The notes under the pieces were generated by a model, which was not told the DNA's origin, did no database searches, and was given only the letters and a program-made list of their open reading frames with translations. A stretch of 64,000 nucleotides of DNA, taken from Akebia trifoliata. Lineage: Eukaryota > Streptophyta > Magnoliopsida > Ranunculales > Lardizabalaceae. The stretch is from contig CM030704.1 of NCBI GenBank assembly GCA_017979445.1, positions 16,227,658 through 16,291,657 on the forward strand, in the 5' to 3' direction. Made by a program: the position numbers and the translations under genes. Below, in pieces: positions 20,091 through 20,862 of the stretch (the first letter of the stretch is position 1; each line of letters begins with the position of its first letter).

Positions 20091-20862
20091 GATAAAGCAA
20101 TTGATCATCGAATTTACAGTTGCAGCAATGGAAGAGTTTATAAGAATAGCCCAACTAGGGGAACCGTTGTGGGTACATAGTCTTGATCATGCTTATGAGT
20201 TTCAAAGTGAAGATGAGTACATGCGAACATTCCTGAAGGGAATAGGGCCAAAACCATTTGGATTGAAGTCAAAAGCTTCTCGAGAAACTGTCGTTGTTAT
20301 CATGAATCACATTAACCTTGTTGAGATCTTCATGGATGTGAATCAATGGTCGAATATATTATTTAACATTATTTCAAGAGCCATGACTCTAGAAGTCCTA
20401 TCAACCGACGTAGCAGGAAACTATAATGGAGCCCTTCAAGTGATGATAGTAGAATTTCAAATCCCTTCGCCTCTGGTTCCGACTTCAGAGAGTTTCTTTG
20501 TAAGGTATTGTAAACATCATGCCGAAGGGATTTGGGTAATGGTCGATGTTTCCTTGGATCGCGTCCTAGCCCGATATTGAGATGTCGAAGAAGGCCATCA
20601 AGCTATTTAATCAAGCAATGCCAAATGGTTACTCCAAGGTCATATGGGTCGAACATGTAGAAGTGGATGACAAAGCAGTTCACAATATATATAGAACACT
20701 GGTTAACTCTGACCTTGGATTTGGAGCAAAGCAATAGGTTGCTACCTTAGATCGACAATGTGAACGCCTTGCAAGTGTTATGACTACTGACACGCCAACT
20801 AGAAATATTAGTGTGATAATAAATCAAGAAGGGCGAAAGAGTATATTGATATTGCAAGAGAG
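20091..20862 (+). pseudogene. Captured HD-ZIP IV homeobox gene fragment (START domain), intronless
   Basis: The open part (about 20101-20580) reads AAMEEFIRIAQLGEPLWV, FLKGIGPKPFGLKSKASRET, VIMNHINLVEIFMDVNQWS, RAMTLEVLSTDVAGNYNGAL and PLVPTSESFFVRYCKHHAEG. These are the hallmark START-domain blocks of class IV homeodomain-leucine zipper transcription factors (ANL2/PDF2/GL2 group). After a frameshift the RPSP..RCRRRPS segment is seen; after another, MPNGYSKVIWVEHVEVDD, then a TAG at a Trp position, ATLDRQCERLASVM and INQEGRKS. The homeodomain and zipper are missing, as is the C-terminus. About 250 residues are covered with no intron. It lies between B's pol and B's polypurine tract/3' LTR, in the same orientation, so it looks like an mRNA segment taken up by the element. 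Non-functional now. Confidence 0.85.

Follow-up and report, generated by a model that had tools for sequence, protein, structure and literature searches.

A spliced HD-ZIP IV gene fragment blended from two host paralogs inside a Ty3 retrotransposon family of Akebia trifoliata

In the genome of Akebia trifoliata, a family of Ty3 retrotransposons has a piece of a spliced host gene of the HD-ZIP IV class (PDF2/ML1-like) lodged between its integrase and its 3′ LTR. The fragment occurs at 150 genome places or more, and in most of the copies compared it combines sequence of two host paralogs, L044 and L051. We report its structure in a stretch of 64,000 nt (from here: the window), its parent genes, its distribution over the genome and the exchange of the captured module between element lineages.

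In the window, the alignment to the parent gene L044 places the fragment inside a Ty3 element at positions 20058 to 20978 of the plus strand. The interval 20091 to 20862 given in the original prediction was too short. The START-domain blocks named there are readable across two frames: a profile search found PF01852 at 20092 to 20577 (E 4.7e-22; 78.8 bits, where the cut-off is 22), and a match to the same profile in a second frame covers 20570 to 20734 (E 1.2e-7). The individual parts, with L044 positions counted within the L044 locus, are as follows.

20058 to 20978, plus strand: captured spliced HD-ZIP IV cDNA fragment, START to 3′UTR, without homeodomain and zipper (PF01852 and parent alignment)
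20058 to 20340, plus strand: piece of a parent exon, L044 2950-3231, beginning mid-exon; junction 20340/20341 lacks the 90-nt intron
20341 to 20442, plus strand: parent exon L044 3322-3423; the following junction lacks the 159-nt intron
20443 to 20638, plus strand: parent exon L044 3583-3783, short by about 5 bases, which changes the frame; the following junction lacks the 114-nt intron
20639 to 20813, plus strand: parent exon L044 3898-4072; the following junction lacks the 150-nt intron
20814 to 20876, plus strand: start of the next parent exon, fused to a later exon by an internal deletion (L044 ~4258 to 5422; alignment)
20876 to 20934, plus strand: end of the last coding exon, L044 5727-5785, past the second internal deletion (alignment)
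20935 to 20978, plus strand: second 3′UTR exon, L044 6481-6522; the 695-nt 3′UTR intron is absent at 20934/20935

The homeodomain and the leucine zipper are absent; the capture begins downstream of both and therefore represents part of an HD-ZIP IV gene rather than all of it. The window copy has reading-frame breaks and two internal deletions, which had gone unmentioned before and which removed most of its C-terminal domain. Fuller copies retain the PDF2-type C-terminal domain PF25797 (1.4e-89 in L021, 5.1e-67 in L024) together with 3′UTR; the START content of the fragment was recognized correctly, its extent was not. An internal deletion reading GRKSM-LILQESS is common to several copies (e.g. 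L011, L016 and the window at 20842 to 20849) and may mark a subfamily.

As predicted, the fragment lies on the strand of its carrier, between the integrase at 7938 to 8612 and the LTR starting at 21294. The carrier, element B, and an insertion into it comprise the following features.

6357 to 7028, plus strand: remnant (3′ end) of the element B 5′ LTR, 90% match to 22931-23618
7021 to 7758, plus strand: open frame, element B RNase H of the RVT_3 type, the second RNase H of pol (PF13456, E 1.6e-17)
7938 to 8612, plus strand: element B integrase core (rve; PF00665, E 1.1e-7, 32.4 bits, slightly below the 32.6-bit cut-off)
8732 to 18503, minus strand: Ty3 element of 9.8 kb nested in B, with LTRs at 8732-10392 and 16841-18503 that are 92.5% identical
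18509 to 20057, plus strand: element B spacer from integrase to captured gene, found in 20 of 20 fetched copies
20979 to 21293, plus strand: A-rich stretch and the element's own 3′ internal region (read from the sequence)
21294 to 23618, plus strand: element B 3′ LTR, TGTAGACACC...TCACA (LTR comparison)

The nested element is flanked by a 5-bp target-site duplication, GACGG, at 8727 to 8731 and 18504 to 18508. Since this minus-strand element sits between integrase and fragment, its removal leaves pol, spacer, fragment and LTR as one element. The 5′ side of element B is damaged: the LTR end (~7028) abuts the RNase H, leaving no room there for gag, protease and reverse transcriptase. Copy L023 has RVT_1, RT_RNaseH, RVT_3 and rve in that order over three open frames, with an integrase match to PF00665 at E 4e-13, and L024 has the first three of these domains. 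The Tat lineage of Ty3 elements is marked by an additional RNase H, of the RVT_3 type, that follows RT/RNase H and precedes integrase, and this is the arrangement found in L023; no chromodomain was detected after the integrase in the 569-aa frame of this one copy at E 0.01. Judged by this domain order, the element B family is Tat-like Ty3.

A genome search with the protein query P0008 revealed, among many element copies, a single intron-bearing gene. This parent gene, L044 (C1:29.10 Mb), has exons for homeodomain, zipper, START and C-terminal domain, and it does contain introns across the captured interval. Copy L026 matches, in this order, the L044 segments 2950-3231, 3322-3423, 3583-3783, 3898-4072, 4223-4494, 5215-5310, 5399-5785 and 6481-6575, the last being the second 3′UTR exon. 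Seven introns of 90, 159, 114, 150, 720, 88 and 695 nt (the latter length taken directly from the printed bases), all GT-AG and one of them the 3′UTR intron, are gone in L026. In the window copy, five exon-exon junctions are joined, and no parent intron was retained in either copy. With seven GT-AG introns removed exactly, the captured sequence derives from a spliced transcript, as had been proposed; the template switching proposed along with it is, we infer, the likeliest mechanism. The aligned copies start at one shared mid-exon point, host 2949-2951, CTCCTGAGATCACTC, and the 3′ end of the capture in fuller copies is 3′UTR.

The first intron is further supported by a comparison of the window frame with 120 listed of 164 database proteins, in which 67 matched stretches stop at residue 82 or 83; 20 proteins among the 120 listed cross this junction, some visibly with the intron read through. 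Three START-only database proteins, P0003 (Rosa), P0004 (Malus) and P0005 (Miscanthus), cross both intron sites and are possibly retrocopies or ordinary gene models. A PDB search by sequence yielded nothing useful.

The prediction that further copies of element B bear the insert was borne out. Using the 162-residue window frame as query, 150 matches were scored out of 809 first-look candidates, which puts the fragment at 150 or more places, a count that may include redundant contigs. All 150 scored rows, the window's own included, cross residues 83/84 and 116/117 without a gap of intron size. A second search, with P0008, gave 142 rows, of which two belong to the host gene, and contributes approximately 35 further places, judged by eye. 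In 20 fetched copies, integrase was present upstream in 20, the spacer in 20 and RNase H in 18, where the fetched stretch of L009 begins too late to include it; an LTR followed downstream in 19. The insert is hence not unique, and its flanks in the fetched copies are those of element B. Because these 20 copies had been selected on their START match, six places were also drawn from a search with the spacer (2143 candidates, 40 scored) that had no listed START match. The fragment was present in all six, in one of them cut short by other sequence. No element copy lacking the capture was seen among the 20 START-chosen and six spacer-chosen copies. With a homeodomain query, 48 matches were obtained (60 of 60 candidates scored), none of which coincided with the places of START copies compared by eye.

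Two kinds of irregular copies were observed. In L009 (oriented positions 6869-7262) and L021 (oriented positions 7090-7590), the captured coding part ends in a stretch of 55-146 bases that occurs two to three times in tandem. The START copy at G000:C867:188530-189051 on the minus strand aligned to P0008 at 53% identity beginning with residue 102, which lies upstream of where the copies usually start; the early start may be a chance extension or a longer capture.

A single parent gene, as assumed in the original prediction, did not hold, and L044 as the only source was dropped once L051 was read. L051 (C13:2.43 Mb) is the closest homeodomain paralog; throughout the captured part its introns lie at the same positions as those of L044, and the captured coding regions of the two genes are 85.8% identical. 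Painting at 211 diagnostic sites identified 28 of 32 copies, including the window, as mosaics with L044 at the ends and spliced L051 inside, and parent switches were fewer than with shuffled sites in 28 of the 32 rows (p 0.049 or less). Four copies (L026, L030, L034 and L042) are essentially pure L044, with one 7-site stretch in L034 leaning to L051. The 5′ end is covered in 26 of the 28 mosaics and is L044-like in every one of these 26 (in L011 over the first four sites alone); the 3′ ends, where covered, are mostly L044. Breakpoints fall within exons, and the L051 blocks extend over exon junctions. The block in the window runs from coding position 63 to 645.

20122 to 20699 (approximate, ~10 bases), plus strand: L051-derived block with L044-derived flanks, 92.1% identical to L051 and 82.1% to L044

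The copies differ in their block patterns, of which there are several, and this requires recombination within the element family.

We consider the following course of events, taken as a whole, highly probable. A 5′-truncated spliced L044 mRNA, reaching from the START N-terminus, mid-exon, to the 3′UTR, was taken in between integrase and 3′ LTR, and the fragment spread with the element to the places counted above, at least 150. In most copies, spliced L051 sequence replaced the captured inner part via homologous recombination, and the module was swapped among element lineages differing in integrase. Capture and L051 replacement probably both proceeded by template switching of the reverse transcriptase between RNAs co-packaged in virus-like particles. 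The L051 sequence could have come either straight from host mRNA or via another element. By now the fragment appears to be a passenger.

An origin of the fragment as a LINE-type processed pseudogene of L044, which landed in one element copy and was then amplified without involvement of the element's reverse transcriptase in the capture, appears unlikely to us. It would fit the 5′ truncation, the 3′UTR and the A-rich tract that follows the 3′UTR in many copies, and for a pepper resistance gene LINE retroduplication is described in PMC5664825. As no capture-free copy was found, a poly(A)-like tract is indistinguishable from the element's own A-rich sequence. A scan of 19 rows, made up of 18 copies and the window, gave scattered matches of 7-8 bases around the fragment and no consistent flanking duplication, a weak argument against a LINE origin since decay could hide one. 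Moreover, a sense capture between pol and 3′ LTR corresponds to the usual retroviral-type pattern according to PMC7264820, and a LINE retrocopy leaves the L051 blocks unexplained.

As an alternative to recombination inside the element, the mosaic might already have existed in a third host gene, or L044 and L051 might have undergone gene conversion ahead of the capture; we regard such an origin as very improbable. Such a source has some room, in that L044 and L051 are the sole loci read of the 48 homeodomain places and the others are known as matches alone. Against it, a single 5′ junction is common to the aligned copies, and L044 3′UTR occurs in the window as well as in several copies, yet their block patterns differ, so that recombination within the family would be required in any case; furthermore, no long stretch matching neither parent was seen by eye in the painting.

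Exchange between element lineages is visible in the relation of the captured module to the rest of the element. An L051 block in exon 2 occurs in seven of the eight copies of one integrase clade and also in the window, L009, L011 and L014 of the other clade. The mosaic types therefore cut across the integrase clades, indicating that the module moved between element lineages. Distances between integrase and spacer were correlated with r 0.85, those between integrase and START with 0.35 and those between START and spacer with 0.44, over 210 non-independent pairs. In AU tests, the START grouping was rejected by the integrase and the spacer data; this grouping was named after the tree was seen and has moderate support (89/98). 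Reciprocally, the START data reject integrase clade I at p 0.02, with no rejection once L022 is left out. Median dS values of 0.89 (integrase) and 0.25 (START) agree with an arrival of START after the integrase split.

For the analysis of selection, poorly aligned stretches were removed ahead of the counts. At sites where L044 and L051 agree, the shared-variant 0-fold/4-fold ratio was 0.89 (0.69-1.27), and out-of-frame controls at such sites gave 0.82 and 0.94. Stop codons numbered 101 against 100.1 expected (range 74-131) in 32 rows. From these codon patterns, the captured frame looks neutral after the capture; mild constraint is possible given the few usable sites (134 four-fold). An initial indication of constraint came from a pairwise dN/dS of ~0.46 and a base-stratified 0-fold/4-fold test, in which integrase (0.28) was the positive and shifted frames were the negative control. 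It was rejected because the signal is non-significant at parent-agreeing sites; the shared variants include differences between two functional host genes, which gives the appearance of constraint. We therefore give very little credence to a START/C-terminal frame retained as a working element protein under purifying selection, even though a first test gave 0-fold/4-fold ratios of 0.62 for shared variants and 1.38 for singletons, 88 stops were counted against 159.5 expected in 26 rows and in one copy 481 codons stay open, with a PF25797 match at 1.4e-89, since these signals come largely from the two functional parents, the parent-agreeing ratio resembles the out-of-frame controls, stops match the neutral expectation and the copies were mostly selected by protein score, which itself favors intact frames.

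Private mismatches, pooled over 26 mosaic rows, make up 9.3% of the L044 blocks and 6.2% of the L051 blocks; in the pure copies, the value is 7.7%. At a substitution rate of 1.3e-8 per site and year, these mismatches would correspond to some millions of years, as a rough guide. The idea that L051 is younger than L044 in all mosaics fits 25 of 26 copies but was rejected, as some of these positions show lower values in pure L044 copies as well. In the closely related copies L015, L021, L024 and L025, private mismatches in the L051 block are 0.040-0.063 versus 0.078-0.083 over the same stretch in pure L044 copies, i.e., half to three quarters of the pure-L044 level, which is what a later entry of L051 would give; in the other mosaic group tested, there was no such difference. 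We tentatively raise the somewhat doubtful idea that the captured segment kept recombining by homology with spliced host transcripts, mRNA of the paralog being written over it once the first capture had taken place. If true, the retroelement family would amount to a continuing, mutated record of transcripts from host genes.

Gene capture had been described to us as known for a few elements. The precedents of Bs1, rice and sorghum stand (for the latter two, PMC3726574), and the pepper NLR genes add a precedent in large numbers (PMC5664825). Maize Bs1 is likewise an LTR element bearing several host-gene segments (PMC13317346). According to that source, its segments come from three genes (H+-ATPase, xylan endohydrolase and beta-1,3-glucanase), whereas here two paralogs are blended in one segment, and the family is pol-bearing, Tat-like by its domains and present at no fewer than 150 places. 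In pepper, as here, intron-less host genes lie inside LTR elements, with 105, 123 and 86 NLRs in three genomes; ~72% of them are in non-autonomous elements as given in PMC5664825, in contrast to one capture with one joint traced across copies as a two-parent mosaic. Extra ORFs in LTR elements have precedents (PMC7264820, PMC11963269). Retand/Tat elements possess one in the long region between pol and 3′ LTR, the same element position; the usual one in Retand is the antisense TRP28, for which PMC11963269 gives no known relative outside transposons, whereas here it is a host gene fragment in sense orientation. An orchid Ty3 lineage with an m6A demethylase domain resembles our case in having a host-type domain fixed, but that domain is an ORF with in vitro demethylase activity (PMC9289625), and the frame studied here looks neutral. 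In a survey of 121 angiosperm genomes, 15 additional domains are listed for LTR elements, and START is absent from its main text. Cassandra also carries host-derived sequence tracking a host gene, the 5S rRNA genes; there it is a 5S-derived promoter in the LTR (PMC10853983), here spliced protein-coding exons of two blended paralogs. Among the matches listed in the open-licence literature, none described an LTR element with a START or HD-ZIP fragment. The two-parent blending is what is new here, and scale, single joint and a parent still in the genome also set this capture apart.

One bounded capture whose parent is still in the genome can thus be traced through this large number of places (at least 150). 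The two paralogs act as color markers for recombination between elements, perhaps also with host mRNA, and copy-choice recombination in plant LTR elements thereby becomes measurable from sequence. By its homology to two HD-ZIP IV genes, the fragment is also a possible source of small RNAs; should the copies enter small-RNA pathways, an influence on these two genes of the epidermal-regulator type is conceivable.

Several further features were observed in the elements and in the window. Upstream of the RT in L024, a G-patch domain was found (L024:2-469, plus strand, 5.7e-7); G-patch is reported in other plant LTR elements (PMC9289625). The window is a deep nest of Ty3 elements. Additional LTRs of the family of the nested element lie at 4660-6356 (plus strand), 24150-25662 (minus strand) and 35642-37214 (minus strand). 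The first of these, a plus-strand Ty3 LTR of a different family from B, terminates within the 5′ LTR of element B. Upstream of it, a tandem array at 3024-4291 comprises 24 copies with a period of ~52 bases. At 59110-59634 on the minus strand, an open frame with an SH3_Tf2-1 domain (7.3e-12) represents a Ty3 pol remnant of another type.
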